From NCBI RefSeq assembly GCF_001050155.1, contig NZ_LFVY01000007.1, forward strand, positions 124,001 to 188,000: DNA of 64,000 bases, in the 5' to 3' direction. Source of the DNA: Nitratireductor soli (GTDB taxonomy: Bacteria > Pseudomonadota > Alphaproteobacteria > Rhizobiales > Rhizobiaceae). The first letter of the stretch is position 1, and each line of letters starts with the position of its first letter. A program made the translations under genes and the position numbers. The notes beneath the pieces were generated by a model that had not been told where the DNA came from, did no database searches, and saw only the letters and a list, made by a program, of their open reading frames with translations. Positions 15,323 to 56,010 of this stretch are shown here, one piece after another.

Positions 15323-15464
15323 TGGGTCCTCCGATGCTGTTTCATACGGACGAAGGCGCTGCGGAACGCCGTCGAGAAAAACGATTGTCGGTGCGGCGAC
15401 GCGCGCGTTGACACGGGACGATGACAGCCGTTTGATGCGGCCATCGCAAGGAGATGGAGAAGAC

Positions 15465-19386: not shown

Positions 19387-21117
19387 GTGCTGGATCCATT
19401 ATCAGGCGACAAAGCCGGCCCGAGACAAGAGGCCGCCGACGCGGATCGGCCGGCATCATCCGTGGCCGCCGCGTATGCGCGCTGGCGCAGCGAGGCCTAT
19501 GAGCGCGAATTCGTGGGGCGCTCCCCGCGGCGGCCATTCGTCACCGACGTCGGGCTGGAGATTGAACCGCTGTACACGCCCGCCGATCTGGAAAAGGCCG
19601 GTTTCGACTATGGTCGGGACCTCGGGTTTCCCGGCGCTTACCCATTTACGCGGGGCGACCGTGCCGCGATGTACCGTTCCGAGCCCTTCGTCATCTCGGC
19701 CTATGCGGGCTTCGGCGACGGCGAGGTCTGCAACCGGCGTTTCAAGAACCTTTTGGAGATCGGCGCCGAGCAGATCCTGGTGGCGCTCGACCTGCCGACC
19801 CAGTGCGGCTACGATTCCGACGACCCGATGGCTGCCGCTGAGGTCGGCCAGGTGGGGGTGGCGATCGACACGCTGGCCGACATGGAAGCGCTGTTCGACG
19901 GCATCCCGGTCGACAGCGTCAAGCGGGTCGGCACGCTGGGCAATTCGATCGGGCCTATCGCGCTTGCCCTCTATGCGGCGCTGGGCGAGAAACAGGGTGT
20001 CGCCTGGAGCGACTACACGGTCAATCTGCAGAACGACCCGCTGAAGGAATACATCGCGCGCGGCACACAAATCCTGCCGCCGGCGCCGGCGGCCAGGCTG
20101 GCCTGCGACGCCGTCACCTGGTGCATCGACAAGACGCCGCACTGGTCGCCGATGACGGTCTGCGTCAACCACATCAATGCCGGCGGCGCCGGGTCTTCGG
20201 CGGCGACGGCGATCGCCCTGTCGAATGCGCTGCACTACATCGACGCCATGCTGGCAGCGGGCCACGCGATCGACGACGTGGCGCCGCTGATCCACATGTT
20301 CCCCGATGAACGGCACGATTTCTACATCTCGATCGCCAATCTCAGGGCGTTGCGGCGCATCTGGGCGCGCCTGATGCGCGAACGCTACGGCGCATCGCGC
20401 GCCGAGGCGCTTTCGCTGCAGACCACGGTCTACGGCCATGGCCAGGAATCGCTGCAGGAACCCTTGAACAACATCGTCCGCACGGCGTTCGGCACGCTGG
20501 CCTATGTGTTGGGCGGGGCAAGCTACGTCTATCTCGCCTGCTATGACGAGGCGGTGTCGACGCCGGGCGAGGAATCGATGCGCGTGGCGCTGCGCACGCT
20601 GCAGATCATCGCCAACGAGCATGGCATCGCCGATGCGATCGATCCGATGGGCGGATCCTATCTGATCGAGACCCTGACCAACCAGGTGGAGCGGCAGATC
20701 CTCGATTCGCTCGCCGAGATCGAGCGTCTCGGCGGGGCGCTCAGCGTCATCGACACGGGCTTCGGCCGGCGGCTGATGACGGAGGGCGCGGTGCGCCGGC
20801 AGCGCGCCATCGACAGCGGCCAGCGGCCCTGGGTGACGGTGAACCGGTGGCCGCAGAAGCCGAATGTGCCGAACACGGCGTTTCGCGGCGACCCGGAAGC
20901 GGTCGACCGCCAGTTGCGGCGTCTCAACGCGGTGCGGGCGCAGCGTGACGGCAAGCGCGTTGCAGCGGCGCTGGCTAAGATCGACCGCGCCTGCGCCGAG
21001 GGACGCAACGTCACCCCGGCGGTGCTCGAGGCGGTGCGGGCCTATGCCAGCGTCGGCGAGATCTGCCGCATCTGGCGCGACCGATTCGGCATCTTCACGC
21101 CATCGACCGATTTTTGA
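19387..21117 (+). CDS. B12-dependent acyl-CoA mutase, large (substrate-binding) subunit
   Basis: Methylmalonyl-CoA-mutase-family catalytic subunit of 576 residues, without the B12 domain, which is the separate next gene, as in isobutyryl- and 2-hydroxyisobutyryl-CoA mutases. Start is a GTG at 19387 right after GGAGGAGGA. Compared with the Propionibacterium enzyme, Tyr106 matches Tyr89, Arg225 matches the carboxylate-binding Arg207 and His262 matches His244, but Asn261 replaces Tyr243. The offset of 17-18 is constant, which supports the alignment. Keeping Tyr and Arg points to a carboxylated (methylmalonyl-type) substrate rather than the HcmA or IcmA type. Many other active-site stretches, e.g. 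TTVYGHGQES and MFPDERHDFY, are unlike the standard enzyme. Probably an undescribed specificity. Confidence 0.88.
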   Translation: MLDPLSGDKAGPRQEAADADRPASSVAAAYARWRSEAYEREFVGRSPRRPFVTDVGLEIEPLYTPADLEKAGFDYGRDLGFPGAYPFTRGDRAAMYRSEPFVISAYAGFGDGEVCNRRFKNLLEIGAEQILVALDLPTQCGYDSDDPMAAAEVGQVGVAIDTLADMEALFDGIPVDSVKRVGTLGNSIGPIALALYAALGEKQGVAWSDYTVNLQNDPLKEYIARGTQILPPAPAARLACDAVTWCIDKTPHWSPMTVCVNHINAGGAGSSAATAIALSNALHYIDAMLAAGHAIDDVAPLIHMFPDERHDFYISIANLRALRRIWARLMRERYGASRAEALSLQTTVYGHGQESLQEPLNNIVRTAFGTLAYVLGGASYVYLACYDEAVSTPGEESMRVALRTLQIIANEHGIADAIDPMGGSYLIETLTNQVERQILDSLAEIERLGGALSVIDTGFGRRLMTEGAVRRQRAIDSGQRPWVTVNRWPQKPNVPNTAFRGDPEAVDRQLRRLNAVRAQRDGKRVAAALAKIDRACAEGRNVTPAVLEAVRAYASVGEICRIWRDRFGIFTPSTDF

Positions 21118-21130
21118 TTGTGGGTGCGCA

Positions 21131-21541
21131 ATGACAGGACGGCGACTGCGTATTCTGATCGCGAAGGTGGGCCTGGACGGGCATGATGTGGGTGCCAGGG
21201 TGGTGGCGCGGGGCCTGCTCGATGCGGGCATGGAGGTCATCTATACGGGACTGCGCCGGACACCGGAGCAGATCGTCCGGGCGGCGATCGAGGAGGATGT
21301 CGACTGGATCGGCATCAGCCTCCTGTCCGGCGCGCACCGCGTGCTGGTGCCGCGCATCCGCGAACTTCTCGACGAAAGCGATGCCGGCGATATCGGTATC
21401 CTGGTCGGCGGCATCATTCCGCAGGAGGACGTCGCCGAGCTGGAAAGCGCCGGGGTGGCAAGGGTCTTCCTGTCGGGGACGTCGATCTCGGAGATCGTCG
21501 CCTTCCTGCAAACGCAAAGCGCGGATCTGAAGAATGCATGA
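21131..21541 (+). CDS. B12-dependent acyl-CoA mutase, small (cobalamin-binding) subunit
   Basis: A 136-residue Rossmann-like B12-binding domain. The base-off/His-on motif GLDGHDVGARVV near 15-26 provides the lower-axial His; ISLLSGAH and GGIIPQED supply the SxL and GG cobalamin-contact segments. It pairs with the large subunit 13 bases upstream to form the active mutase. Size and gene order match HcmB/IcmB-type small subunits. It overlaps the next ligase gene by eight bases. Confidence 0.93.
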   Translation: MTGRRLRILIAKVGLDGHDVGARVVARGLLDAGMEVIYTGLRRTPEQIVRAAIEEDVDWIGISLLSGAHRVLVPRIRELLDESDAGDIGILVGGIIPQEDVAELESAGVARVFLSGTSISEIVAFLQTQSADLKNA

Positions 21542-23084
21542 AACCGAGCAGGCACACGGCAGCACGGTCGGCCGGCTGATGGGCCAGGCGGCGCGGCGCT
21601 TCTGCGACCGGATCGCCTTGCGCCATGGCGGGGAAAGCTGGAGCTTCGCCGCCTTCGACGACATCGTCGCGCGGCTGGCGGCGGGGCTGTCGGATGCGCT
21701 TGCGCCGGGCAGCCGCGTCGCCCTGATGATGCGCAACCGGCCGGATTATCTTTTCCTCCAGGCGGCAATCGAGAGGGCGGGGCTGGTTCGCGTCCCGGTC
21801 AATGCGCTGGCGACGGTGCACGAGACGCGGCTGATCGACGAGGACTGCGCGCCCGCGGCCTGGTTTCACGACCGGCAGAGCGCCGACCGCGTGCCGCATC
21901 GCGACGGGCTGTGGCGCGCCTTCGTCGACGGGGGCGAAGCCGTTTGCGGCCCCGCCTACGCGGCGCTGCGCGCCACGCCGCTGCCGCAAGTCCCGCCAGC
22001 CGGGCCGCGGCTGGATGATCTATGCTCGATCAACTACACGTCGGGCAGTTCCGGCCGGCCCAAGGGGGTGATGCTGACGCATCGCAACTGGGCGGCGGTC
22101 TACCGCAACATGCTGATCGACCGTGATGTGCGGACCGACGACGTGATCGCCCATATCGGACCGCTGACGCATGCGAGCGGCACCTATTTCGTCCCCTGGT
22201 TTCTGCGCGGCGCCACGAACCTTTTGATCGACGGCGCGTCCGTCGAGGGGATGCTGGAGGCGGTGGGGCGGCATGGCGTGACGGTCTTCACCTGCGTGCC
22301 GACCGTGCTGACGCGGATGGTCAATCATCCGCGTGCCGCCGGCATCGACTTCTCCTCGCTGCGGATGATCGGCTATGGCGCCGAACCGATACCGCGCAAC
22401 ACGCTGACCCGCGCGCTCGATCTGTTCGGGCCGATCCTGGTGCAGAATTACGGCCTGACCGAAGCGATGATGACATGTGCAACGCTCGGCGCGGGCGATC
22501 ATTTCGACGGCGATGGCAATCCGCGCTTCGGCGCCATCGGTCGCGCCTACACATTCGTCGAAATCGTCCTGCGCGACCGCGACGGGCGACCGGTGCCGGC
22601 CGGCGAGATCGGCGAGATCACCATCCGCTCCGACCATGTGATGCGCGGTTATTGGGGCATGTCGGAGGCGACGGCGGCGGTGCTGCGCGATGGCTGGCTG
22701 TGGTCGGGCGACCTGGCGCGGATGGCGCCCGACGGGATCATCACGCTGGCCGGCCGCAGCAAGGACATGCTGATCTCGGGCGGGTTCAACATCTATCCGC
22801 AGGAAATCGAGGCGGCACTGACGAGCTGCGCCGACATCGTCGAGGCGGCGGTGCTGGGCGTTCCCGATGCCGACTGGGGCGAGATCGCGGTGGCTTTCGT
22901 CGCGCTGGCGGGGTGTTCGCCGCGCACATCGGAGGACATCATCGCCGAACTGAAGCCGCGCCTGGGGATCCGCACGCCGAAGCGCCTCGAAATCCTCGAC
23001 GCCCTGCCGAAGAATGCCAATGGCAAGGTGGACAAGAATGCGCTGCGGGCGCGCCGGCAGCTTTCGCCGACGGAGGCTTCATGA
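21534..23084 (+). CDS. AMP-forming acyl-CoA ligase
   Basis: ANL-family acid:CoA ligase of 516 residues: P-loop YTSGSSGRPKGVMLTH, NYGLTEAMMTC, WSGDLARM, GRSKDMLISGG and the adenylation Lys in NGKVDKNAL. The ATG lies inside the end of the mutase small subunit gene. In the best-known parallel, the 2-hydroxyisobutyrate operon, a CoA ligase sits next to the hcm mutase genes and makes the mutase substrate; here it likely activates the acid that is rearranged. It is a different protein from the ligase at 16709-18379, which lies in another operon. Confidence 0.9.
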   Translation: MHETEQAHGSTVGRLMGQAARRFCDRIALRHGGESWSFAAFDDIVARLAAGLSDALAPGSRVALMMRNRPDYLFLQAAIERAGLVRVPVNALATVHETRLIDEDCAPAAWFHDRQSADRVPHRDGLWRAFVDGGEAVCGPAYAALRATPLPQVPPAGPRLDDLCSINYTSGSSGRPKGVMLTHRNWAAVYRNMLIDRDVRTDDVIAHIGPLTHASGTYFVPWFLRGATNLLIDGASVEGMLEAVGRHGVTVFTCVPTVLTRMVNHPRAAGIDFSSLRMIGYGAEPIPRNTLTRALDLFGPILVQNYGLTEAMMTCATLGAGDHFDGDGNPRFGAIGRAYTFVEIVLRDRDGRPVPAGEIGEITIRSDHVMRGYWGMSEATAAVLRDGWLWSGDLARMAPDGIITLAGRSKDMLISGGFNIYPQEIEAALTSCADIVEAAVLGVPDADWGEIAVAFVALAGCSPRTSEDIIAELKPRLGIRTPKRLEILDALPKNANGKVDKNALRARRQLSPTEAS

Positions 23085-24262
23085 GCGGCCGGATCGTCAT
23101 CGGCTCCTACGCCCGCACGCCGTTCGGCAAGTTCGGCGGGGCGCTCAAATCGCTCTCCGGGCCGGAACTGGGCGCCTTCATCATCGATGCGGTGCTCGAC
23201 CGCTCGGGAATCACGGCCGCTGATGTCGAGGCCGCCTATTTCGGCGTCGGCATGATTGGCGGCGGCATGCTGACGCCGACGCGCCAGGCGGTGCTGCGCT
23301 CGCGGCTGCCGCAGGAGACGCCGTCGCTCGCCGTCGACCGCGCCTGCTGTTCGGGGATGTCGGCGATCGGCCTGGCCTACAAGGACATCAAGGCCGGCGA
23401 GGCGGGCCTGCTGATGGCCGGCGGTTTCGAAAGCCTGTCGCGCACGCCGCAGCTTCTGCCGCGCGCCAGGGAAAAACAGGTCGGCCGGCTGACGGTCGAT
23501 GATCCCTTGCTGATGCGGGGGGAGGTGGTCGAGGCATCGATCGCCGGCTACACCGCCCGCGAGGCGCTGCGGAACGGCATCGACCGGGCGATGCAGGACG
23601 AATGGGCTCTGGCCAGCCACGAACGGTATTTCGCCGCCGACGCCAGGGGGTTCTTTGACGCCGAAAGGGTCGCGGTTCCGGTCGGCAACGGCATGATGGC
23701 GAAGGACGAGGCGCCGCGCGCCGACACTTCGCCCGACAAGCTCGCCGCCCTGTCGCCCGTCTACGACAGCGAGACCGTGACGCCTGGTAACGCGCCGGGA
23801 CTGAGCGATGGGGCGGCGGGGCTGCTGGTGGCCAGCGAGGCGCGCGCGCGCGATCTCGGCCTGCGAGCCGAGGCCATCATCCATGGCTATGTGCAGGTCT
23901 GCGACGGACCCACTTCGGGCTCCTACACGCCGGCCATCGCCATCCGCCGGCTGCTCGACCGGCATGGACTATCGCTCGACGACATCGCTCTGATCGAGAT
24001 CAACGAGGCCTTTGCGGCGACACCGCTTGTCTCGACGCACAGGCTCGCCGATGGCGAGGCGGGATTGGCGGAGAAATTGCGCCGGCGCACCAACATTCAT
24101 GGCGGAGCGGTGGCGATCGGGCATCCGCTCGGCGCCAGCGGCGCGCGGCTGGCGATGACGCTGGCCAGCGCGCTGCGCGCACGCGGTGGCGGGTTCGGGA
24201 TTGCAGCGATCTGCGGCGGCTTCGGCCAGGGCGACGCCATCCTGCTGGAGGTGGCCGGCTGA
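23081..24262 (+). CDS. Thiolase (acetyl-CoA C-acyltransferase)
   Basis: Thiolase of 393 residues. The nucleophilic Cys is in RACCSGMSAIG near 89, NEAFAATP and GGAVAIGHPLGASG supply Asn and His, and ICGGFGQGDAI carries the second Cys. It would cleave a 3-ketoacyl-CoA with CoA to release acetyl- or propionyl-CoA. It overlaps the ligase (ATGA) and the MeaB gene (TGATG). No acyl-CoA dehydrogenase or 3-hydroxyacyl-CoA dehydrogenase accompanies it, so steps between mutase and thiolase must be supplied elsewhere or are not needed. Confidence 0.92.
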   Translation: MSGRIVIGSYARTPFGKFGGALKSLSGPELGAFIIDAVLDRSGITAADVEAAYFGVGMIGGGMLTPTRQAVLRSRLPQETPSLAVDRACCSGMSAIGLAYKDIKAGEAGLLMAGGFESLSRTPQLLPRAREKQVGRLTVDDPLLMRGEVVEASIAGYTAREALRNGIDRAMQDEWALASHERYFAADARGFFDAERVAVPVGNGMMAKDEAPRADTSPDKLAALSPVYDSETVTPGNAPGLSDGAAGLLVASEARARDLGLRAEAIIHGYVQVCDGPTSGSYTPAIAIRRLLDRHGLSLDDIALIEINEAFAATPLVSTHRLADGEAGLAEKLRRRTNIHGGAVAIGHPLGASGARLAMTLASALRARGGGFGIAAICGGFGQGDAILLEVAG

Positions 24263-25350
24263 TGGATGGGAGCGCGCGCCGCAGGATTGCCCGGGCGATC
24301 AGCGCCGTTGAGAACCGCAGCGGCGCCTACGAAGCGACCCTGCGCGACGCCTACCGCTCGCCGCAATGGGCGCGGATCATCGGTGTGACCGGGCCTCCAG
24401 GCGTTGGAAAATCGACTTTCGTCGACCGGTTCTCACTGCATCTGGCCGAGGCGGGCCACCGGGTGGCGGTTCTGGCGATCGATCCCTCAAGCCCCTATTC
24501 GGGCGGCGCGCTGCTGGGCGACCGGGTGCGGCAGGGCGACAGCGCGGCGCACGACGCCATCTTCTTCCGCAGCGTCTCGGCGCGCGGGCATATCGGGGGC
24601 TTGAGCGAAACGGCGGTCGACGTGATCGCCACGCTGAGCAGCTTCGGCTTCGGTTACGTGCTTCTGGAGACCGTCGGCGCCGGGCAATCGGACGTGGAGA
24701 TCCAGGAGATCGCCGATTGCACGCTGGTGATGACCGTTCCTGGCCTTGGCGACGGCGTCCAGGCATCGAAGGCCGGGCTGATGGAGATCGGCGATCTGTT
24801 CATCGTCAACAAATCCGACCAGTCGGGCGCCAAGGACACGGCAAGGCTGATCCGCTCGGTGATCGCGGCGGCCTATATGGGCGAACCGGGGCTGAACCGT
24901 GTCGAACGGCAGCAACTTCATGGCGAGCATAGGATGCCGGCCAGTGCCGGGTCGCTGGCCCTGATGCGCCGGCATGGCGACATGGTGAACGAGGAAACGA
25001 TCTGGGTGCCGCCGGTGCTGCAGGTCTCGGCGAACGCCGGGCAGGGGATCGACGCGGTGGCAGGGATGGCGCAGTCGTTTCTCGACTGGTTCGCGGCCAC
25101 GGGACGGCGCGAGGCGCGCCATCGCGACCGGCTCTACCGGCAGATCCTGCGCGCCTTGTCGGCGCTTTTCCTGGCGCCTTACCGGGTGCCGCCGACAACC
25201 GCCGACTATCCCGCCGCCGTCGGCGCCTGGGTCGATCGTGTCTCGGCCGGCGAGGCAAGCCCGTTCGATGCCGCCCGCGCTCTGGCCGCCTGTGCGGGCA
25301 GCGCTGCCGGCCGGCGGCCCGACGCGGCGAAGAACAACAAGGGAGGATGA
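24262..25350 (+). CDS. meaB: MeaB/ArgK-type GTPase, mutase chaperone
   Basis: G3E-family GTPase of 362 residues that protects and reloads B12 mutases. Motifs: Walker [11 protein letters not shown] near 44-53, [15 protein letters not shown] with the MeaB base-sensing segment, [12 protein letters not shown], and NKSD for guanine recognition. A dedicated copy next to the mutase subunits supports the B12 assignment. The C-terminal 30 residues are Ala/Arg/Gly-rich and probably flexible. The start overlaps the thiolase stop (TGATG). Confidence 0.93.
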
Positions 25351-25351
25351 G

Positions 25352-26434
25352 ATGGCGACCGTCGAACTGCAGGGGGTGCGCAAGAGCTTTGGGCAACTGG
25401 AAGTGGTGCATGGCGTCGATCTCGACATTGCAGAGGGCGAGTTCGCCGTGCTGGTCGGGCCATCCGGCTGCGGAAAATCGACGCTTCTCAGGATGATCGC
25501 CGGGCTGGAGGAGATGACGTCCGGCGCGATCCGCATCGGCGGCGCCATCGTCAACCACCTGCCGCCGAAGGACCGGGACATCGCCATGGTGTTCCAGAAC
25601 TATGCGCTGTACCCGCACAAGACGGTGCAGGCGAACATGGAGTTCGGCCTGAAGCTCAGGAAGACGCCAAAGGCCGAGATTGCAAGGCGGGTCGCCGACG
25701 CCGCTGAAATCCTCGGCCTGACGGAACTGCTCGGACGGCATCCAAGGCAGCTTTCCGGCGGCCAGCGCCAGCGTGTCGCCATGGGGCGGGCCATCGTCCG
25801 CGACCCGCAGGTCTTTCTCTTTGACGAACCGCTGTCCAATCTGGACGCCAAGCTCCGGGTGCAGATGCGCACCGAGATCAAGGCGCTGCAGAAGCGGCTC
25901 GGCACCACATCCGTCTATGTGACGCACGACCAGGTGGAGGCGATGACCATGGCCGACCGCATCGTCGTCATGCGCAACGGCCATATCGAGCAGGTGGGCG
26001 CGCCGCTCGATCTCTACGAGCGGCCGGCGAACATGTTCGTCGCCGGCTTCATCGGTTCTCCGGCGATGAATTTCATTCCCGGCACCGTCGTGCGCAACGG
26101 GGCGGGACCGGTGCTGCGGGCCGCCGACGGCGTGACCCTGCGGCTGGCGCCCGATTGCGCCTGCGAGGAGGGGCGCCAGGTGGTCTGCGGCATCCGGCCC
26201 GAGCACCTGACGATCTGTAGCGACGCGGAACAGGATGCCGTTTCGGCGGCGCTGCGCTACATCGAGCCGACGGGATCGCAGACCTTCGTCTTCGCCGACA
26301 TCGCCGGCGGCGTCCAGCTTTGCCTGATCGCCGCGCAGCCCCGCTTGCTAGCGGCGGGATCGACGATCCGCCTGCGCGCCGAGCCTTCGGCGGTGCATCT
26401 GTTCGACGGCGCGTCGGGCGCGGTGCTTCACTAG
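25352..26434 (+). CDS. ABC transporter ATPase, MalK/UgpC type
   Basis: Sugar-importer-type ATPase of 360 residues: GPSGCGKST near 36, [39 protein letters not shown], then TOBE/MalK regulatory domains with IRPEHL. GGGAGGATGA precedes the ATG at 25352. It is cotranscribed with the mutase operon. The SBP and permeases at 29361-32632 have no ATPase of their own, so this protein probably drives them, which ties the importer to the mutase pathway. The TAG stop abuts a palindromic repeat. Confidence 0.92.
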
Positions 26435-26438
26435 GGCA

Positions 26439-26535
26439 TTTTGCAGTCAGGTGGAATCACCTGACGTCCGCATAAATGCAGAAAAACAAAGAGTTAGACC
26501 GGTTCAACGTTTCTATGAAACGCTGAACCGGTCTA
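26439..26535. repeat. Triple-hairpin intergenic palindromic repeat, copy A
   Basis: About 97 bases with three stems: CAGGTGGAATCACCTG, GCATAAATGC and a long one made of AGACCGGTTCAACGTTTC and its complement. Copies occur at 43464-43563, 61875-61976 (reverse orientation) and, in reduced form, 55104-55150. It separates the convergent ATPase and dimethylformamidase-like genes, and the latter's stop codon (26533-26535) is inside it. It looks like the RIME-type mosaic repeats of rhizobia; the family name is an inference. Confidence 0.85.
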
Positions 26536-29082
26536 GGGCAGCACGAACGGTTCCGGGTCGATGAAGCGTTGCAACACATTGCCGGTTAGCCGGGCGATGT
26601 TGTTGGCGTAGCCATTATGGGCGAGGCTGCCGGCATAGGCGATCGAGCCGGTGGAGAAGACCGCGCCGCCGCCGGGGCATTCGAAGAACACCATGTCGGC
26701 CCGCACCGCCGGGTTGAACGGGCCGGCGGTGCCGCCATGCGGCACCATGACGGTGTCATTTGCCGGCTGATAAGTCGGCGAATGGTTTTCCGACGAGGCG
26801 ATCACCAGCGCGTGCCGGGGCGAACCCTGGCGGAGATCGAAACTGTCGAGCTCCTCGCCCGCCGCGCCGTCGCCGGCCGTGCCGAAATCGCCGAGGATCT
26901 CACCCTCCACGCCGTCGAAGATGAACGCCACGCGCGGGTCGCGGCTTGCCGGCGTGCGACGATAGTAGCTCGACCGGTCGAAACCCTGCGCGGCGAAGCC
27001 GATGCCGGCCAGCATGTGCGGCGCCCGTCCCTGGCGGCGCCACAGGCCGCCCATCTCGCCGGTAAAGCCCATATGGTATTCGCCGGCTTCGGCATCCCAT
27101 GCGCGCGTGCCGTCTTCGGCCCGTCGCGTCTCGACGATGCCGGGTTCGCCGGGGCGAAAGGCGATGCGCCAGTAGAAGCCGTTGCCGCCCAGATAGATGA
27201 AACGGCCGCCGCCCCTCACATAGGTTTCCAGCCCGTCCAGCATTTCGAGGCTGACATATTCGGGATGCGTGCCGGTGACGACGCATCGGTAAGGGGCGAG
27301 CAGCGTCGCGCCCTCCCGGTGCAGATCATCGTCGGTGATGACGTCGAACGGCTCTCCCAGATGTTCGAGCCACTCGATGACGAACAGGTCCTCGCTGAAA
27401 TTCCACAGGCGGCCCTTGGGGCGGAAATTGGTCACGGGGCGCAGGCGCGTGCCGTAGCAGACGCCGCTGCCGTCATTGTGGACGCAATAGGTCGACAGGC
27501 CGAGCGGGTGGTCGAGAAGCTGCAGGTCGGCGGCGTCGAAATCGAGCAGGCGGCCGCGGATCAGCTCCGTGGTGGGGCTGAAGAAGCGGGCGCGGTTGTT
27601 GGCGTAGACCGTGTAGGTGGCGGTCGGGGCGAGGAAAGCGATGCGCGCCCTGGCGGCTGCCGGGCGGACGAAGAAGGGAATGTAGGTTTCAGCCGCGCCG
27701 CCGCGCAGGCGCGCGGCGTAGACGCCGCTTTGCCAGTCGTCGCCGACGGTGACCTCGATGTCGGTCTGCCAGCCGGCATCGTCGATGTCGTCGTCGTGGA
27801 AATGGATGGCGCCATAGTGCGCGGGGGCCTGGGTCCAGTCGCGGACGGTGCCGTCCCAGAGATGGCCGGTCATGGCGCGCGTCGGCTGGTTGACCAGCCG
27901 CGCGTGACAGCCGGCCGGCCCGCGGTCGATGACGGCGCCGGTGTGCATCTCCAGGGAGAAATCCCAGGCGGCGGCGATGTCGGGCAGGGTGGCCAGTGTC
28001 TCGCTGGCCATGGGCAGGGCGCTGAGCGCCTCGGCAGTGACGGCCGCGCCGAGGATCGCCGGTGCCTCGATCTTGCCGTTGAAATGGCCGCCATGCGCCG
28101 CACCGTGCGCGTCGTCGGCATGCCAGGCGGCGATCAGGCCGGGACGGTGCGGCAGGCGCGGGCGCAGTTTTGTCCGGCGGCTGACCGCAACGGGCCTGGC
28201 GGCGCTGAAGCCGTGGGCGCCGATTGGCTCCTGCAGCAGGTGAACGGTGCCGCCGGCGGCGTCGAAGCTGGCGCTGACGCGGCTCCATTGGCGTGGCGGA
28301 AGGCTGACGCCGGTGGAGATTTCCTCCTGGTCGGCGCCGTCGCCGATGCGCAGGGCGAGCGACCCGGCGGCATCGACGATGAGGGCGATGCCGGTCCGCT
28401 CGGATTGCGACCAGTTGCCGATCAGAGCGGCCGCATCGCGGTTGAGCGTCGGCCAGACGAGCGCCTGCAGGGTGAGGCTCATCGGTATGCGCAGCGTGTC
28501 GGGCAGGCGGGCGAAGGAGCCGAGACGCAACGGTTGCACACGGCCCACAAACGCGCCCAGGCCCTGCACCATGTTTTCGCGAAACCCTTCCTCTCCCGCC
28601 GCGCGCGCCGGGGCGTGCAGGCGGACGATGTCGGCGCGGTAGTTGGCGATGCCGGGCGTGCTGACCTTGAAGGCGATCGTATCCCCCGGCTTGACGCCGA
28701 GCCTGTCGGCGTAGGCGAGGATGACGCGGCTCGTGTCCGGCGGCGCGAGGGGCGCGGCCGGCTGGTGCGGCGGTTCGCCGAGCGCTTCATCGAGATCGTG
28801 GCCGGTGAGGATCGCCCAGCGCAGCTTGAACACCGTCCATTCGGCCTCCTCGATGGACGAAAAGACATAGCCGGGAACGACCTCGGGCCTGGGCGGAGCG
28901 CCGGTGATGCGGGCGAGCAGCCATTTGCGGCGCGGCTCGACGACGATCAGGCAATGCTTGCCCTCGATCGGCAGGCCGCGCATGCGCAGCAGCACGGCCT
29001 GCAACTCCTGGCTATGGGCCCCGAGGGGATTGGCCTTGAACTCGCGGGCGAGGTCGAGGCGAGAAGGGTCGATCTCATACAT
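26533..29082 (-). CDS. N,N-dimethylformamidase-like amidohydrolase, small and large subunits fused
   Basis: An 849-residue protein related to N,N-dimethylformamidase. That enzyme is normally two chains, about 130 and 760 residues, with an unusual mononuclear iron bound by two Tyr and one Glu. Residues 1-130 (with SSIEEAEWTVFKLRW near 75-90) resemble the small subunit, and the rest the large one, so this seems a natural fusion. Candidate metal ligands are a Tyr in YTVYANN (~490), Tyr in STYCVHNDG (~530) and Glu in THPEYVS (~605); their spacing roughly follows that recalled for the Paracoccus enzyme. A laminin-G/concanavalin-like segment lies in the middle. The start at 29082 has only a weak ribosome site. 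Lying between the ATPase and the remaining importer genes, it probably hydrolyses the imported amide. True substrate unknown. Confidence 0.8.
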   Translation of the reverse strand: MYEIDPSRLDLAREFKANPLGAHSQELQAVLLRMRGLPIEGKHCLIVVEPRRKWLLARITGAPPRPEVVPGYVFSSIEEAEWTVFKLRWAILTGHDLDEALGEPPHQPAAPLAPPDTSRVILAYADRLGVKPGDTIAFKVSTPGIANYRADIVRLHAPARAAGEEGFRENMVQGLGAFVGRVQPLRLGSFARLPDTLRIPMSLTLQALVWPTLNRDAAALIGNWSQSERTGIALIVDAAGSLALRIGDGADQEEISTGVSLPPRQWSRVSASFDAAGGTVHLLQEPIGAHGFSAARPVAVSRRTKLRPRLPHRPGLIAAWHADDAHGAAHGGHFNGKIEAPAILGAAVTAEALSALPMASETLATLPDIAAAWDFSLEMHTGAVIDRGPAGCHARLVNQPTRAMTGHLWDGTVRDWTQAPAHYGAIHFHDDDIDDAGWQTDIEVTVGDDWQSGVYAARLRGGAAETYIPFFVRPAAARARIAFLAPTATYTVYANNRARFFSPTTELIRGRLLDFDAADLQLLDHPLGLSTYCVHNDGSGVCYGTRLRPVTNFRPKGRLWNFSEDLFVIEWLEHLGEPFDVITDDDLHREGATLLAPYRCVVTGTHPEYVSLEMLDGLETYVRGGGRFIYLGGNGFYWRIAFRPGEPGIVETRRAEDGTRAWDAEAGEYHMGFTGEMGGLWRRQGRAPHMLAGIGFAAQGFDRSSYYRRTPASRDPRVAFIFDGVEGEILGDFGTAGDGAAGEELDSFDLRQGSPRHALVIASSENHSPTYQPANDTVMVPHGGTAGPFNPAVRADMVFFECPGGGAVFSTGSIAYAGSLAHNGYANNIARLTGNVLQRFIDPEPFVLP

Positions 29083-29360
29083 GAAGCGCTCGTTGAAGAT
29101 GCGTGGCGGCAGATGGCGTGATGCAGGCGGCGCGGCCGGTGGGATCCGCGAATGGCGGGGCGGAGAGTCCAGTGTTGCAGTTTCACCGGATTTTCCAGTG
29201 CGAGGCAATGGGCGGTGATCGGATTCGTGAATAGCTGAAAACGTCCAATATATATAATGATTTTGCGATTTACGCAATACACAGGCTTAAATTGTGTTGA
29301 AAATGCATAAAAGATACCCTACGGTTATGTTGGCCAATGGGAAGGGCCAGGGAGGATGTC
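29083..29360. promoter_or_regulatory. Divergent promoter region with TTGCG dyad
   Basis: AT-rich spacer between the dimethylformamidase-like gene and the importer operon. TTGCGATTTACGCAA (29263-29277) is a five-base-arm dyad next to the AT run TATATATAA; TTGAAA at 29297 could be a -35 element for the importer. No gene is seen in it. Confidence 0.4.
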
Positions 29361-30674
29361 ATGTCAGGCAAGAGAATTTCAGGCACGACAAGAAGAGCGT
29401 TCATGCGCAATGCCGGCCTCGTGTCGCTGGCTGCGGCGACCGGAGGATTGTCCGCGCGGTTCGCGCGGGCGGCGACGCCGATCAGCCTGGTCGGCTGGAC
29501 GTTCAGGCCGGACATGGTCCAGGCCTATATCGATTTCTTCAACGAGAAGTATGGCGAGGCGGTCGACTATTCGACGCTGCCTTGGCCGACCTTTCACCCG
29601 ACGCTCGAGCAGCGGGCCTTTGCCGGCGACATCGTCGACGTGATGTATTGCACGCACAACAACCGGCAGCGCTGGTTCGAGCGCGGCATGATCCGCAGCC
29701 TCGAAGACCTGCCGGGCTTCGACGAGATCAAGTCCGCCATGCTGCCGGCCAGCCTGTCGAGCCTGACCAGCAAGGATGGCGCGCACGTGATCGCCCTGCC
29801 GTATTACTCGGCTTACTACATCATGATGTACAACGACCCGATGCTGAAGAAAGCCGGTTTCGACAAACCGGGCGCCGGCTGGGACGAGATCATCGAGCAA
29901 TGCGTCAAGCTGAAGACGGACGGCATCTCGGAATATCCGATGCTGCCCAACTGGAATCCGACGCAGACGGGCACCAACCCGCAATTCCTCAGCGATTGCT
30001 TCGCCGAGGGGGCGGCGCTGTTCGACGACGCCAACAAGCTCCAGGCGGACCAGGACGCGGTCGCCCATGTGATGGAGCGGTGGCAGAAGATGTACGAGCT
30101 GGGACTGGTGACGCCGGAAATCTTCACCCAGGCCTCGTCGACCGACACGCACCGGATGATGTTCACCGGCAAATACGCCTTCCATTCGAACCATTGCAAC
30201 TATCTGCAGGACACGGCGACGGACGCGGCGCAATCGCAACTCGCCGGCAAGAAGGCGCGCATCACGCCCTATCCGGGCAAGACGGGCGACACCTATGCGT
30301 GGACGGATTCCTACGTGATGAACGCCAAGACGGCGGCGTTGGAATCCGCATGGAAGCTGCTGCAGTTCCTCGGCGCCAACCTGAACGGCGACTGGTATGT
30401 GCAGAAGGAGTGGGCGATCTCGTCCGGCGTGCAGAACCCCTATCCGGCATTCTACGAGGACCCGGCCGTCATCGCCTCCACCGAGGAGTGGGTCGATCCG
30501 GCCATCCTCAAGGAGCAGGCCGGCAAGGGCAAGGTCATCAACGCCTTCAAGGAGACCTGGTATCCCGAATACGACACCAAGGTCGTGCCGATCATGCACG
30601 ACATGATCCGCAAGAAATCGTCGGTTCCCGAGGCGATCAAGGCGATGACCGACCTGTATCAGTCGCTCGCCTGA
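29361..30674 (+). CDS. ABC transporter binding protein, sugar type, Tat-exported
   Basis: Family 1 extracellular solute-binding protein of 437 residues. The ATG at 29361 follows AGGGAGGA. The N-terminus has a twin-arginine motif (TRRAFMRNAG) before a hydrophobic stretch and ARA cleavage site near 36, so export in folded form is likely. The fold class binds sugars and glycerol phosphates, but in rhizobia also many other neutral compounds. Next genes are two MalF/MalG-type permeases; the ATPase is at 25352. Divergent from the dimethylformamidase-like gene, which suggests that the ligand is an amide or a sugar amide (inference). Confidence 0.9.
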   Translation: MSGKRISGTTRRAFMRNAGLVSLAAATGGLSARFARAATPISLVGWTFRPDMVQAYIDFFNEKYGEAVDYSTLPWPTFHPTLEQRAFAGDIVDVMYCTHNNRQRWFERGMIRSLEDLPGFDEIKSAMLPASLSSLTSKDGAHVIALPYYSAYYIMMYNDPMLKKAGFDKPGAGWDEIIEQCVKLKTDGISEYPMLPNWNPTQTGTNPQFLSDCFAEGAALFDDANKLQADQDAVAHVMERWQKMYELGLVTPEIFTQASSTDTHRMMFTGKYAFHSNHCNYLQDTATDAAQSQLAGKKARITPYPGKTGDTYAWTDSYVMNAKTAALESAWKLLQFLGANLNGDWYVQKEWAISSGVQNPYPAFYEDPAVIASTEEWVDPAILKEQAGKGKVINAFKETWYPEYDTKVVPIMHDMIRKKSSVPEAIKAMTDLYQSLA

Positions 30675-30728
30675 GACCCGCCTGACCGGGGCCGCCCGAA
30701 GCAATAACCCGTGGGAGAAACACGGCCG

Positions 30729-31736
30729 ATGGCCGATCTTCTCGAACCGATGAAAAGAGACGTTCGGGCACAGCCCGGAACCGGGCGAAACGGCGGTCTC
30801 ATCCGCCGTTTCAGCCTCTATGCGAACACGCAGGCGGGTTTTGCGACATTGCTGATCCTGCCGGCGCTGACGGTGATCTTCGCCGTGGTCTTCTTTCCGC
30901 TGGTCTATTCGATCTGGCTCAGCCTGGCGGAGGTCGACCTGCTTGACACGAGCGGGCCGACGCTGAACCTGTTCGGCTTCAACCTGCCGCTCTACAAGTT
31001 CATCGGCTTTGGCAATTACCGCGACATCGTCGGCGATCCGCTCTATTGGGGCGCGCTCGGGCGCACGGTGTTCTTCGTCGCCGCCTTCGTCGTCGAGGCG
31101 ACGGTGATCGGCCTCGCCATGGCGCTGATCCTCAATTCGGAATTCTTCGGCCGGCCGATCCTGCGCGCCGCGCTGCTCATTCCATGGTCGATGTCGCGGG
31201 TGGTGGTGGGCCTGTTATGGCTCGGCATGCTGTCGGCCGATTTTGGCGCGCTCAACGCGATCCTCAGCCGGCTGGGCCTGATCGACCACTACATCTCCTT
31301 CTTCCAGAACGGCTTTTCGGCGCTGAACGTGCTGGTGCTGGTCTATGTGTGGAACCAGGCGCCCTTCGCCACCGTGCTGTTCTTGGCCGGGCTGCAGTCG
31401 ATCCCGAAGGATCTTTACGCGGCGGCCGAGGTCGATGGCGCGGGGTTCTGGCGCAAGCTGTGGCATGTGACGCTGCCGTCGCTCCGGCCGATGATGTTCC
31501 TGGTGCTGGTGCTGTCCACGGTCAACGGCTTCCTGATGCTCGATCTGATCTTCGTCATGACCTTCGGCGGTCCGGGCAACGACACGACGACCGTTTCCTG
31601 GCTCGGCTATGTGACGGCGTTCAATTTCTTCCAGTTCGGGCCGGGCACGGCGATCCTGTTCACGCTGACGCTGATCTGCGTCGTGCTGACCGTGGTCTAC
31701 CAGCGCCTGATCCTGGCGAAATTCCAGGCGGAGTGA
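30729..31736 (+). CDS. ABC transporter permease, MalF/UgpA type
   Basis: Permease of 335 residues with six or more membrane segments and the EAA loop (AAEVDGAGFWRKLWHVTLPS). The ATG at 30729 is preferred over a GTG at 30711 because GGGAGAA falls between them. The long hydrophilic N-terminus of about 40 residues is cytoplasmic. It forms the membrane channel with the next gene, fed by the binding protein at 29361. Confidence 0.9.
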   Translation: MADLLEPMKRDVRAQPGTGRNGGLIRRFSLYANTQAGFATLLILPALTVIFAVVFFPLVYSIWLSLAEVDLLDTSGPTLNLFGFNLPLYKFIGFGNYRDIVGDPLYWGALGRTVFFVAAFVVEATVIGLAMALILNSEFFGRPILRAALLIPWSMSRVVVGLLWLGMLSADFGALNAILSRLGLIDHYISFFQNGFSALNVLVLVYVWNQAPFATVLFLAGLQSIPKDLYAAAEVDGAGFWRKLWHVTLPSLRPMMFLVLVLSTVNGFLMLDLIFVMTFGGPGNDTTTVSWLGYVTAFNFFQFGPGTAILFTLTLICVVLTVVYQRLILAKFQAE

Positions 31737-31741
31737 GGGCG

Positions 31742-32632
31742 ATGAGCGTGCAAGCGGTGCCCTATCGTCAACCCGTCCTGACCAGGATCATTTCCGCCTG
31801 CGGCATCTATGTGCTGGCGGCGCTTGTCGCCATCTGGCTGATCGGCCCGTTCCTGTGGCTGTTCATCACCTCGATCAGCTATCAGCGCGACCTGCTCGCC
31901 CTGCCGACACCGCTGATCCCGGTCAATCCGACGCTGGAGAATTATGGAAAGATCCTCGGGCTGGTGGAGTTCAACCATGCCGACCAGGCGCGGCTGGTGA
32001 TCGCCTCGCTGGGCAACAGCTTCATTGTCGCCATGGCCGTCACGCTGATCAACATCGTCTTCGGCAGCGCCGCCGGCTATGCCTATGCACGCCATCGTTC
32101 GCGGCTGATGAGCCTGTCGCTCTACCTGGTCCTGTTCACCCGCATGCTGCCGGTGGTGGTGCTGATCCCGGCCCTGTTCCTGATGCTGCGCCAGCTTGGC
32201 CTGCAGAACAGTTTGACCGGCCTGACGATCGCCTATTGCTCGTTCACCTTCCCGTTCACCATCTGGATCATGAAGAGCTATTTCGAGACGATCCCGCGGG
32301 AACTCGAGGAAAGCGGGCTGGTCGACGGCTGCACGCGGTTCCAGGTGTTTTGCCGGCTGATCGTGCCGATCTCCGGGCCCGGCTTCGTGGCGGCGGGCGC
32401 CTTCACCTTCGTCCTGTCCTGGAACGAGTTCCTGGTCGCCCAGGTGCTCAATTCGAAGCGCGGCATGACGACCCTGCCGCCGGCCATCGCCGGCATGCTG
32501 GGACAGGCCAATCTCGACTATTCGATCATCGCCGCCTCGGGTTTCCTCTCCGCCCTGCCGGCGGCGGTGCTGGCGCTGCTGTTCCAGCGCTACATGGTCC
32601 AGGGGCTGACCGCCGGCTCGGTCAAGGGCTAG
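31742..32632 (+). CDS. ABC transporter permease, MalG/UgpE type
   Basis: Second permease, 296 residues, six membrane segments, EAA loop (EESGLVDGCTRFQVFCRLIV). It starts five bases after the previous stop. The TAG stop (32630-32632) is part of a small palindromic element, CTAGAGCA...TGCTCTAG. This gene ends the importer; the aldehyde dehydrogenase that follows 110 bases later may be a separate unit. Confidence 0.9.
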   Translation: MSVQAVPYRQPVLTRIISACGIYVLAALVAIWLIGPFLWLFITSISYQRDLLALPTPLIPVNPTLENYGKILGLVEFNHADQARLVIASLGNSFIVAMAVTLINIVFGSAAGYAYARHRSRLMSLSLYLVLFTRMLPVVVLIPALFLMLRQLGLQNSLTGLTIAYCSFTFPFTIWIMKSYFETIPRELEESGLVDGCTRFQVFCRLIVPISGPGFVAAGAFTFVLSWNEFLVAQVLNSKRGMTTLPPAIAGMLGQANLDYSIIAASGFLSALPAAVLALLFQRYMVQGLTAGSVKG

Positions 32633-32663
32633 AGCAATTCCAGGAAAAGCGGAAATGCTCTAG
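32629..32663. repeat. Short palindromic element containing a gene stop
   Basis: CTAGAGCA (32629-32636) and TGCTCTAG (32656-32663) form perfect arms, with an inner TTCC/GGAA pair. It resembles the AGAGCAATTCC palindromes frequent in Mesorhizobium-type genomes. The permease stop TAG lies in the left arm. It may stabilise or end the transcript. Confidence 0.6.
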
Positions 32664-32742
32664 CGGAATCACACCATCGGGCCAGGCCGGTCCGCATCTT
32701 TCCACGGCGCCTGAATGCGCCATGAAGCAGGAGGTTTGCACC

Positions 32743-34236
32743 ATGAACATCATCGCCCAGGAACGACCGGCGTTTCTGACCACCGGACCGAAAAAGATGC
32801 TGATCGACGGCCGGTGGGTGGAGGCCGCCTCCGGCAAGACGTTCGAGACCGTCAATCCGTCGACCGGCGAGGCGATCGCGACCATTGCCGAGGGCGAGCG
32901 GGAAGACGTTGACCGCGCCGTGGCGGCGGCGCGAAAAGCCTTCGACGAAGGACCGTGGCGCAAGTTCAAACCGCACGACCGGCAGGAGATCCTGCTCAAG
33001 CTGGCTGATCTGGTGGACAGGAATTTCGAGGAATTCGCCCTGATCGACGCGCTCGAAATGGGCGAGCCGATCACGCGGCGCAAGAATGCGCGGCGGCGGG
33101 TGCTGGGCCTGATCCGCTATTACGCCGGCATGGCGACGGCGCTGCATGGCGAGACGGTCGAGAATTCGATGCCGGGCGGCGACTTCACCTCCTACACGCT
33201 ACGCGAACCGGTCGGCGTCGTCGGTGCGATCGTGCCGTGGAACGGGCCGATGGTGTCGTGGATATGGAAGCTCGGGCCGGTGCTGGCGACCGGCTGCACC
33301 GCCGTCTACAAGCCGTCGGAGGAGGCTTCTCTGTCGGCGCTGCGGCTGGGCGAATTGCTGTGCGAGACGGGCATTCCGGACGGCGTGGTCAACATCGTGC
33401 CGGGCTTCGGACACGCCGCCGGTGCTGCGCTGGCCGAACATCCGGGCGTCGACAAGATCGCCTTCACCGGCTCGGTCGAAACCGGCCAGAAGATCCTGAT
33501 GGCATCGGCCGGCAATCTGAAGCGCGTGACGCTTGAACTGGGCGGCAAGTCGCCCGACATCGTCTTTGCCGACGCCGACATGGAGCTGGCCGTGCCGGGC
33601 GCGGCGATGGCCTGCTTCGGCAACACCGGCCAGGTGTGCAGCGCCGGCACGCGGCTCATCGTCGAGCAAAGCGTCTATGACGAATTCAACGAGCGGCTGG
33701 CCGATTTCTCGAAGACGCTGAAGGTGGGCAATTCGCTCGACGCGGAAACGCAGATCGGTCCGCTGGTTTCCAAAAAGCAGCTCGACCGCGTGTCCGGCTA
33801 TCTCGATCTCGGGCGGTCGGAGGGCGCGCGCGTCCTTTCGGGCGGCGAGCGGCTGAGCGACCCGGACCGCGCCAACGGCTATTTCATCCCGCCCACCGTT
33901 TTCCGCGACGTGAAGCCGGAAATGCGCATCGCCCGCGAGGAAATCTTCGGCCCGGTGGTCAGCACCATGCCCTTCACCGACATGGAGGAGGTGGCGCGGC
34001 GGGCCAATGACACGCATTTCGGCCTCGGCAGCGGCGTGTGGACCCGCGATGTGAGCAAAGCGCATTACCTGGCTAAAAATATTCGCGCGGGCTCCGTCTG
34101 GATAAACTGCTATCAGATGATGGACCCCGCCATGCCTTTCGGAGGATACAAGATGAGCGGTTATGGACGTGAATCGGGCACCGCCCAGTTCGACGATTAT
34201 CTGAACGTCAAGGCCGTGTGGATCCGGACCGCTTGA
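32743..34236 (+). CDS. Aldehyde dehydrogenase family protein
   Basis: NAD(P)-dependent aldehyde dehydrogenase of 497 residues: VPWNGP with the oxyanion Asn, FTGSVETGQ, LELGGKSPDIV with the general-base Glu, NTGQVCSAGTR with the catalytic Cys. The ATG at 32743 follows CAGGAGG; an ATG at 32722 would place that site inside the gene. The length and LELGGKSP block recall betaine/gamma-aminobutyraldehyde and phenylacetaldehyde dehydrogenases. The stop overlaps the flavoenzyme start. Third of its kind by position with 1357 and 50872, but the sequences differ clearly. Confidence 0.92.
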   Translation: MNIIAQERPAFLTTGPKKMLIDGRWVEAASGKTFETVNPSTGEAIATIAEGEREDVDRAVAAARKAFDEGPWRKFKPHDRQEILLKLADLVDRNFEEFALIDALEMGEPITRRKNARRRVLGLIRYYAGMATALHGETVENSMPGGDFTSYTLREPVGVVGAIVPWNGPMVSWIWKLGPVLATGCTAVYKPSEEASLSALRLGELLCETGIPDGVVNIVPGFGHAAGAALAEHPGVDKIAFTGSVETGQKILMASAGNLKRVTLELGGKSPDIVFADADMELAVPGAAMACFGNTGQVCSAGTRLIVEQSVYDEFNERLADFSKTLKVGNSLDAETQIGPLVSKKQLDRVSGYLDLGRSEGARVLSGGERLSDPDRANGYFIPPTVFRDVKPEMRIAREEIFGPVVSTMPFTDMEEVARRANDTHFGLGSGVWTRDVSKAHYLAKNIRAGSVWINCYQMMDPAMPFGGYKMSGYGRESGTAQFDDYLNVKAVWIRTA

Positions 34237-35396
34237 TGGGCGCGACACTGTTTTCCCCGCTGACGGTCGCCGGGACGACGTTCCCCAACCGGATCGTCGT
34301 TTCGCCGATGTGCCAATACCGCGCCATCGACGGCGCGGCGTCCGACTGGCACATGATCCATCTCGGCCAGTTCGCCCTGTCGGGCGCCGGGCTGGTGATG
34401 ATCGAGGCGACCGGGGTCGAGGCTGCCGGCCGCATCACGCCGGGTTGTCTCGGCCTGTACACCGACGCGCAGGAAGAGGCGCTGGCGCGCGTGCTCAAGG
34501 TCTTCCGCCATGTGGGGAAAATGCCGGTCGGGATTCAGATCGGCCATGCCGGGCGCAAGGCATCGAGCCATGTGCCGTGGGATGGCGGGCACGGCCTTGC
34601 CGAAGGCGAGGGCGCCTGGACCATCGTCGCGCCGTCGGCGGTCGCTTATGACGAACACAGGGCGGTTCCCGAAGCGCTCGACGGCGAGGGCATGCGCCGC
34701 ATCGTCGCCGCCTTCGTGCAGGCGGCCGAACGGGCCGAGCGGATCGGCCTCGACGTGGTCGAACTGCACGCGGCGCATGGCTATCTGCTGCACCAGTTCA
34801 TCGCGCCGCTGGTCAACCGGCGCACCGACGCCTATGGCGGCAGCCGCGAAAACCGGCTGCGCTTTCCGCTGGAAGTGGCGGCGGCGCTGCGCGCCGTCTG
34901 GCCCGAGGGGAAGGTGCTCGGCGCGCGGATCAACGGGCCGGACCTGTTGCCGGGCGGGGCGACCATCGAGGACACAATCGCCTTCGCCGATGGGCTCAAG
35001 AAGGCCGGCTTCGACTATGTCTGCGTCTCGGCCGGCAGCCTCATCGGCGGGCAGCGCTTCGAGGCGTTTCCAGGCTACCTTCTGCCCTATGCGGAAGCGG
35101 TGAAGCGGGAAACGGGGCTGGTGACGCAGGGCGTCGGCATGATCGTCGATCCGTTCCTGGCCGAACAAAGCATCGCCACGGGCCAGGTCGACATGGTGGC
35201 CATCGCCCGGGCATTTCTCGAAGACCCGCGCTGGGTCTGGCACGCGGCCGAAAAGCTCGGCATCGCCATGCCGTTCCCGCCCGAGTATCGCGGCGCCGAT
35301 CCCGCCATCTGGCGCGGCGCCGCTCACCGGCCGCTGCTGTGCAGCGAGCCTGGAACCACCGCCGAAGCCATGCGAACCGCTTCGGCCGCAACCTAA
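34236..35396 (+). CDS. Old-yellow-enzyme-family NADH:flavin oxidoreductase
   Basis: FMN-dependent ene-reductase of 386 residues of the YqjM/NamA type: SPMCQYRA near the start, GIQIGHAGRKA, the substrate-binding pair in ELHAAHGYLLHQF, and the RENRLRFP block. Such enzymes reduce activated C=C bonds with NAD(P)H; relatives oxidise N-methyl groups (e.g. of proline betaine) or act in xenobiotic pathways, usually with extra domains not present here. It overlaps the aldehyde dehydrogenase (TGATG) and lies 31 bases before the Rid-like gene, so the three form an operon. Confidence 0.9.
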   Translation: MGATLFSPLTVAGTTFPNRIVVSPMCQYRAIDGAASDWHMIHLGQFALSGAGLVMIEATGVEAAGRITPGCLGLYTDAQEEALARVLKVFRHVGKMPVGIQIGHAGRKASSHVPWDGGHGLAEGEGAWTIVAPSAVAYDEHRAVPEALDGEGMRRIVAAFVQAAERAERIGLDVVELHAAHGYLLHQFIAPLVNRRTDAYGGSRENRLRFPLEVAAALRAVWPEGKVLGARINGPDLLPGGATIEDTIAFADGLKKAGFDYVCVSAGSLIGGQRFEAFPGYLLPYAEAVKRETGLVTQGVGMIVDPFLAEQSIATGQVDMVAIARAFLEDPRWVWHAAEKLGIAMPFPPEYRGADPAIWRGAAHRPLLCSEPGTTAEAMRTASAAT

Positions 35397-55822: not shown

Positions 55823-56010
55823 TCCGCTTGCCAAAATTGCCGCGCGTTACAAATCGTCATCAAGTTTTGTGGCGGCGGCGTATCGTTGCGTTCCTATAAG
55901 GGGTGCGTGCCCTTGATCATGGCGGCGCTCTCTGATTCCTTCGGGTGGACGAGCCTGCCAATCGATTCGAAATCGCTTGTGCCCCGGCTCCCCAAGAAGG
56001 ACCTCGCCCA

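Follow-up and report, generated by a model that had tools for sequence, protein, structure and literature searches.

We analysed a 64,000-nucleotide stretch of the Nitratireductor soli genome (contig NZ_LFVY01000007.1, positions 124,001 to 188,000; hereafter the window, whose own coordinates are used below) and found two catabolic modules side by side: an operon built around a vitamin B12-dependent mutase of the methylmalonyl-coenzyme A (CoA) mutase family, which is a separate unit, and a dimethylformamidase-like (DMFase-like) amidohydrolase with the binding protein and permeases of an ATP-binding cassette (ABC) importer (Table 1). Six plus-strand genes, with successive gaps of +13, -8, -4, -1 and +1 nucleotides, make up one tightly packed operon; in order they encode the large and small mutase subunits, a CoA ligase, a thiolase, a MeaB-type chaperone and an importer ATPase. 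Judged from alignments and a tree, the mutase and its orthologs are a new clade of the family, in which residues of the acyl pocket are retained and residues presumed to contact CoA are exchanged. The best explanation, held tentatively and at less than an even chance, is that this mutase acts on a free 4-oxo acid, followed by the ligase and thiolase, next to an amidohydrolase and importer module.

The mutase belongs to a distinct clade

Mutase loci were the best 80 of 408 related stretches, collected by a scan of genome contigs that relies on exact matches to short peptide patterns and may miss orthologs. Fifteen orthologs (L024-L038), among them those of Aminobacter carboxidus DSM 1086 and Parapusillimonas granuli, were 62-75% identical to the window mutase, and the remaining mutase relatives reached at most 45% identity among the matches listed and at most 46% in the nine that were aligned. 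In a midpoint-rooted tree of 51 rows (the window, the 15 orthologs and 35 others chosen from the loci), the window and all orthologs were set apart from the other rows by a single branch, supported at 100/100, with a stem of 1.95 changes per site. The stem of the 12-row methylmalonyl-CoA mutase group in the same tree was 1.68, so that the clade stands about as far from known mutases as that group does from its neighbours. The tree program warned of long-branch attraction, and the deeper branching order is unsure.

Membership in the family itself is clear from the TIM barrel of the large subunit, which matched PF01642, and from the DGHDxG motif of the separate B12-binding subunit. The model of methylmalonyl-CoA mutase proper (NF006944, cut-off 876), which spans both parts in one chain, gave scores below its cut-off for the large (399 bits) and small (128 bits) subunits. 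The predicted structure had the mutase fold (predicted template modelling score 0.82, mean predicted local distance difference test score 78). Its nearest solved chains were 2-hydroxyisobutyryl-CoA mutase (4r3u, 36% identity) and human methylmalonyl-CoA mutase (2xiq, 33%). More distant Foldseek matches (E 1e-6 to 2e-4) were glutamate mutase, lysine 5,6-aminomutase and ornithine 4,5-aminomutase, enzymes that use free (amino) acids. A second mutase gene elsewhere in the genome (C33), a 714-residue open frame 36% identical to the window mutase, is taken for the canonical methylmalonyl-CoA mutase. No ortholog was found on plasmids, where all 427 records with a match were below 60% identity.

Acyl-pocket residues are kept and presumed CoA contacts are exchanged

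We compared residues across 99 loci (L003-L021 and L024-L103) in human enzyme numbering, which was fixed by a primer printed in PMC10356863. The ortholog group fills 16 rows, with one gene entered twice (L003 and L034); the 15 distinct orthologs and the window make 16 sequences. The other 83 rows are mostly mycobacterial and not independent. All orthologs carry F105, V106, S108, A109, Y110, L217, Q218, R228, N264, H265, L304 and H306. Five residues of methylmalonyl-CoA mutase (human MMUT, 2xiq; Propionibacterium, 4req), namely R108, Q109, R304, S306 and Y264, are exchanged in every ortholog, for S, A, L, H and N, respectively. What the window mutase shares with that enzyme is its carboxylate clamp, Y110/R228, together with Q218, H265 and the B12 motif; the four residues are Y106, R225, Q215 and H262 in the window's own numbering. 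Elsewhere, R108, Q109, Q218, G263 and H265 were invariant in the 83 comparison rows, which had T or S at position 106 (83/83), R228 (80/83) and S306 (80/83). Position 255 varies among them too (R in 57/83, K in 23/83).

We take positions 96-99, 106-110, 216-218, 255 and 304-306 to be contacts to malonyl-CoA; the functions given to Y110, Q218 and H265 in the mutase are likewise presumed. On that footing we take the acyl-pocket residues to be retained and much of the presumed CoA side to be swapped for other, equally invariant residues. In the human enzyme, R228 forms a salt bridge to a substrate analogue and additionally touches the chaperone and the corrin side chain, and R228Q activity was undetectable (PMC10356863).

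Several usually conserved positions are altered in these proteins, as they would be if the large subunit were a catalytically dead partner resembling the methylmalonyl-CoA mutase beta chain. Such a role is scarcely credible, given that Y110, Q218, R228 and H265 are present in all orthologs and that a B12-binding subunit (15/15 loci) and MeaB (14/15) are conserved alongside.

A variant of 2-hydroxyisobutyrate breakdown, the analogy drawn in the original prediction, would comprise a 2-hydroxyacyl-CoA mutase, 3-hydroxyacyl-CoA oxidation and thiolysis. The nearest fold and nearest solved structure do belong to the 2-hydroxyisobutyryl-CoA mutase HcmAB of Aquincola tertiaricarbonis, which also has separate large and small subunits and whose operon likewise unites ligase and MeaB-type chaperone (MeaH) genes, according to PMC7176365. 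At the alignment positions where HcmAB has its marker residues Ile and Gln, however, the window mutase has Tyr and Arg, and the Asp of the HcmAB small subunit is Gly here; the letters come from alignments and the functional roles of these markers are presumed. The window ligase is of another AMP-binding type, with the solved 2-hydroxyisobutyrate-CoA ligase absent by name among the best 60 of its 113 solved relatives, and the window operon adds a thiolase. The analogy was rejected on marker residues and ligase type, and we regard this pathway as very improbable.

As a separate observation, loci L045-L103, mostly from mycobacteria and other Actinomycetota, contain a separate mutase group; in its aligned members AGAHF replaces SGYH, Q replaces R304 and the R108/Q109 pair is kept. 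We know of no described role for this group.

Operon content recurs in ortholog loci

The catabolic genes of the operon accompany the mutase in most ortholog loci. The small subunit was present in 15/15, MeaB in 14/15, the thiolase in 11/15 and a ligase of the same type in 11/15 (12 with one 31% match in L024). Gene order varies, with the mutase first or, in L032-L036, the order small subunit, ligase, thiolase, MeaB, mutase large subunit. Of the 13 ortholog loci whose sequence continues past MeaB, none had an ATPase adjoining it; Pot-type ATPases occurred farther off in three (L032, L033 and L035). The nearest solved chains to the window ligase were a fatty-acyl-CoA synthase, feruloyl-CoA synthetase, FadD8 and malonyl-CoA synthetase. 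The window thiolase has the nucleophilic Cys, His and second Cys motifs, presumably with their usual roles.

Recurrent neighbours were identified by protein clustering, with family scans on one representative of each cluster. A tripartite-transporter (carboxylate) receptor lay immediately upstream of the mutase in 4/15 loci, and a LysR regulator (5/15), a class IV aminotransferase (4/15) and a HyuA/HyuB pair (3/15) were found nearby. The best matches of the pair were the subunits of caprolactamase, a cyclic-amide hydrolase, at 558 and 272 bits, under the cut-offs of 1000, and the next match of HyuA was acetophenone carboxylase; by these scores the pair is a caprolactamase relative and not a certified caprolactamase. 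No dehydrogenase recurred beside the operon among the neighbour clusters, and individual loci do carry dehydrogenases. Relatives of the window's old-yellow-enzyme family protein were found in 2/15 mutase loci and 0/20 DMFase loci.

In Rhodoplanes (L024, 12120-12521), a lipocalin-like frame sits between the mutase small subunit and MeaB. In Rokubacteria (L040, 2970-11982), four large- and three small-subunit-like mutase stretches lie within about 9 kb, by relatives of CoA-transferase and enoyl-CoA hydratase.

A free 4-oxo acid as candidate substrate

From the residue pattern and operon content we infer a substrate, an order of steps and products. The mutase would act on a free 4-oxo acid (R-CO-CH2-CH2-COO-) such as levulinate and not on a CoA ester; levulinate can be viewed as succinyl-CoA with a carbon group in place of S-CoA. 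The conserved Arg and Tyr would grip the carboxylate and the Gln and His the ketone, and the acyl group would shift to the adjacent carbon, giving a 2-methyl-3-oxo acid. The CoA ligase would then activate this acid and the thiolase cleave it to propionyl-CoA and an acyl-CoA, with MeaB loading and repairing B12.

Under this scheme, the retention of the carboxylate clamp, the residue losses, the gene content of the operon and the occurrence nearby of carboxylate receptors, lactamase-like pairs and aminotransferases would all be explained. A 1,2-shift on 2-hydroxyacyl- or dicarboxyl-CoA esters yields no thiolase substrate unless oxidised further. A mutase, ligase and thiolase without a dehydrogenase would be explained here because the mutase product would already be a 3-oxo acid. 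The HyuAB pair, aminotransferase and carboxylate receptor near the mutase would fit a sequence from lactam to amino acid to keto acid. Migration of a ketone is chemically plausible, since methylmalonyl-CoA mutase accepts a ketone (of the carba-dethia series) as an analogue of its substrate. The more distant B12 mutases of related fold named above, which use free acids, likewise speak for the scheme.

Several points weigh against a free-acid substrate. The close relatives methylmalonyl-, isobutyryl- and 2-hydroxyisobutyryl-CoA mutase work on CoA esters, and free 3-oxo acids are prone to lose CO2. Contact of the lost residues with CoA is assumed from database annotation, and CoA may bind otherwise. 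Two of the exchanged positions differ from methylmalonyl-CoA mutase in many comparison rows as well, position 304 being Q in 62/83 and R in only 20/83, and position 264 being A in 62/83 and Y in 21/83. Four of the 15 ortholog loci (L024, L025, L027 and L037) lack an adjacent ligase and thiolase; L025 and L027 are short contigs with only 1.3 and 2.3 kb past the mutase, and L024 and L037 are not short. Each supporting neighbour is present in only 3 to 5 of the 15 loci, and the nearest relatives of the ligase give no pointer to a short 3-oxo acid. Neither the operon nor a B12 mutase for free keto acids was found described in the titles and abstract openings searched, among which subscription journals were thinly covered.

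Almost as likely as the free-acid scheme is one in which a branched or keto dicarboxylic acid is first joined to CoA by the ligase, the resulting ester is rearranged by the mutase with altered CoA binding, and the thiolase acts after an oxidation encoded elsewhere. The close solved relatives are all named CoA-ester mutases, the ligase and thiolase are themselves CoA enzymes, and the retained R228 and Y110 would fit a CoA ester that carries a carboxylate, such as methylmalonyl-CoA. Against this alternative stand R108 and Q109, which every ortholog has lost and 83/83 other rows keep, and the lack of a recurrent dehydrogenase among the clusters described above.

That the window enzyme would be the first B12 mutase of the methylmalonyl-CoA mutase family to act on a free acid, converting levulinate-type 4-oxo acids to 2-methyl-3-oxo acids for CoA activation and thiolysis, is a more doubtful claim, and on balance an unlikely one. 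To our knowledge, the described members of the family are all CoA-ester enzymes. The Lva pathway of Pseudomonas putida, which would serve the same substrate class as the proposed operon, is not known to include a B12 mutase. The Lva route begins with CoA activation of levulinate, according to PMC6692424. B12-linked ketone activation in sulfate reducers is the topic of PMC7888143. If the free-acid scheme is correct, it would constitute a new reaction for the mutase family and a new route for the breakdown of keto acids and possibly lactams. Levulinate-type acids would also reach propionyl-CoA by a short B12-dependent path, with practical value for biomass-derived levulinate. The clade itself, which lacks R108 and Q109 but has a conserved operon, allows the evolution of substrate choice in B12 enzymes to be tested directly.

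The neighbouring gene encodes a fused dimethylformamidase-type amidohydrolase

The amidohydrolase gene is a single uninterrupted minus-strand frame of 914 codons from a TTG. Translation probably begins at the ATG of codon 66 (29082), because homology in the farthest-reaching relatives begins at residues 59-76. By its DMFA2_C domain, iron site and catalytic residues the predicted protein is a dimethylformamidase-type iron amidohydrolase. Y558, Y597 and E673 correspond to the iron ligands Y399, Y440 and E521 of N,N-dimethylformamidase (6lvb; a site of two Tyr and one Glu), and H671, N699 and E809 to its catalytic H519, N547 and E657; these roles in dimethylformamidase are taken from PMC7686228. 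The closest solved chain was N-acetyl-(R)-beta-phenylalanine acylase (8i5a), at 470 bits versus 423 for 6lvb, so the window enzyme scores nearer to a beta-amino-acid acylase. It differs from both in having a small-subunit-like part fused at its N-terminus. Residues ~66-170 matched the stretch just upstream of the large subunit in 16/20 related loci, where this part is a separate match or is split off by a stop (four places with one stop; a separate 122-residue frame in G163). Against solved chains, residues 66-173 did not match the known small subunit. Pantothenate was considered as the amide substrate and dropped for want of evidence.

DMFase-like genes were found in 22 of 151 genomes of the family, including the window's own (E 1e-30). 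The 20 DMFase loci, from 16 genomes, comprise 12 regions covering 13 of the 23 places outside the window's own genome and 8 of the 9 main places in ortholog genomes, the ninth being the same gene as L127. An ABC ATPase was present in 16/20 DMFase loci versus 3/15 mutase loci, a class III aminotransferase in 6/20 versus 0/15, and an aldehyde dehydrogenase in 6/20 versus 0/15. The importers near DMFase-like genes in relatives are of several other classes. In the window, a PotA-type ATPase, class III aminotransferases and a histone-deacetylase-type amidohydrolase lie 11-23 kb upstream of the DMFase-like gene, a set that resembles the surroundings of some of its relatives. This resemblance argues that the DMFase-like gene is part of an amide and amine catabolic region, with the mutase operon a separate unit within it. 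One frame upstream (11885-14251, minus strand) fuses an APH phosphotransferase domain to a class III aminotransferase and adjoins the histone-deacetylase-type amidohydrolase (14291-15490).

No conserved link joins the two modules

The original prediction had treated the two modules as one amide-degradation system. Its description of the locus held up: frames and families match and the genes lie where it placed them, including the tight operon, the fused DMFase-like gene with its catalytic residues between operon and importer, and a binding protein with two permeases that lack an ATPase. The conserved neighbourhood in relatives, whose absence the original prediction had itself named as refuting, did not appear: a DMFase-like gene occurred in 0/15 mutase-ortholog loci and a mutase in 0/20 DMFase loci (264 kb in total for the mutase loci, 9/15 of them with 10 kb on both sides, versus 392 kb for the DMFase loci). 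The window's binding protein was likewise found in 0/20 DMFase loci. Across whole ortholog genomes, a DMFase-like match was present in 5/15 (E 1e-20) and absent from the other 10, and none of the 5 genomes with both genes had them on one contig. These genomes are draft assemblies, and in G163 (L036) the mutase is at a contig end. A conserved link from amide to mutase was rejected on the reciprocal neighbourhoods and this whole-genome search.

The physical tie exists in this genome only: the importer ATPase ends the mutase operon after a 1-nucleotide gap, and its likely permeases lie past the DMFase-like gene, which diverges from the binding protein gene. Together with the lactamase-like pair of three ortholog loci, this tie would suit a single system in which an imported amide is hydrolysed by the DMFase-like enzyme and the acid is CoA-activated, rearranged and thiolysed. 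Set against the empty reciprocal neighbourhoods, the separate contigs and the different importer classes and ATPase frequencies around DMFase-like genes, that system is improbable. Functional linkage of some kind among operon, DMFase-like gene and importer ranges from quite unlikely to doubtful, depending on how strictly it is read. With the HyuAB pair in 3/15 and the aminotransferase in 4/15 ortholog loci, a feed of acids from amides into the mutase is possible.

A plausible split importer

The proposed second module would pair the dimethylformamidase-type amidohydrolase with an ABC importer, and the importer's ATPase would be encoded by the gene that now ends the mutase operon. The split importer of the original prediction is plausible: the ATPase (UgpC/MalK type) and the permeases (MalF/MalG type, with an SBP_bac_8 binding protein) are both of the CUT1 class, the permeases scoring under equivalog cut-offs. 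No ATPase follows the permeases, where the next genes encode an aldehyde dehydrogenase and an old-yellow-enzyme type protein, and no second UgpC-type ATPase was found among the window frames scanned, a part of all frames. The operon-end ATPase and the ATPase-less permeases are probably partners.

The binding protein had no relatives at E 1e-40 in 150 other genomes of the family sample, in which its own genome was matched. A search of the 15 ortholog genomes at E 1e-15, which had no positive control, also found none. Its best plasmid match was 34% identical, with mostly hypothetical proteins as neighbours. Elsewhere in the window, TctA and TctB of a tripartite carboxylate transporter share one frame (44465-46504); a receptor gene and a gene of the ornithine-cyclodeaminase family come next.

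Gene layout and other features of the window

Table 1. Features of the mutase operon, the amidohydrolase gene and the importer genes in window coordinates
Feature	Coordinates	Strand	Basis
Mutase large subunit (substrate TIM barrel)	19387-21117	+	PF01642, 490 bits
Mutase small (B12-binding) subunit, DGHDxG motif	21131-21541	+	B12-binding domain match
AMP-forming acid-CoA ligase (AMP-binding)	21534-23084	+	Family match and solved relatives
Thiolase, start approximate	~23081-24262	+	Family match; nucleophilic Cys, His and second Cys motifs
MeaB-type GTPase chaperone of B12 mutases	24262-25350	+	Above NCBIfam MeaB cut-off
UgpC/MalK (CUT1) importer ATPase, last operon gene	25352-26434	+	508.9 bits, cut-off 432
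Terminator-like hairpin, 19 pairs, T-rich tail, at end of DMFase-like gene	26495-26535	-	Consensus match
Dimethylformamidase-type amidohydrolase with fused small-subunit-like part	26533-29277	-	DMFA2_C, 317 bits
Importer binding protein	29337-30674	+	SBP_bac_8
Importer permease, UgpA/MalF-like	30711-31736	+	Family match
Importer permease, MalG-like; start approximate in frame 31046-32632	~31739-32632	+	Family match
Aldehyde dehydrogenase, start approximate in frame 31855-34236	32791-34236	+	Family match
Old-yellow-enzyme family flavoprotein	34218-35396	+	Best NCBIfam scores all under cut-off

The aldehyde dehydrogenase gene is possibly co-transcribed with the importer genes. Scans of the window for terminators (11 sites versus 9.0 in shuffles, standard deviation 3.3) and promoters (2 sites versus 2.4 in shuffles) were not clearly above chance. 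The region is patchy within the genus, since at the thresholds used neither of the two other genomes of the genus in the sample has a mutase ortholog, a DMFase-like gene or the binding protein. Farther along the window, a 364-residue frame of the FtsZ/tubulin family (55945-57039), with no other cell-division gene named nearby, lies between glutathione S-transferase-like and NAD-synthase-like frames.

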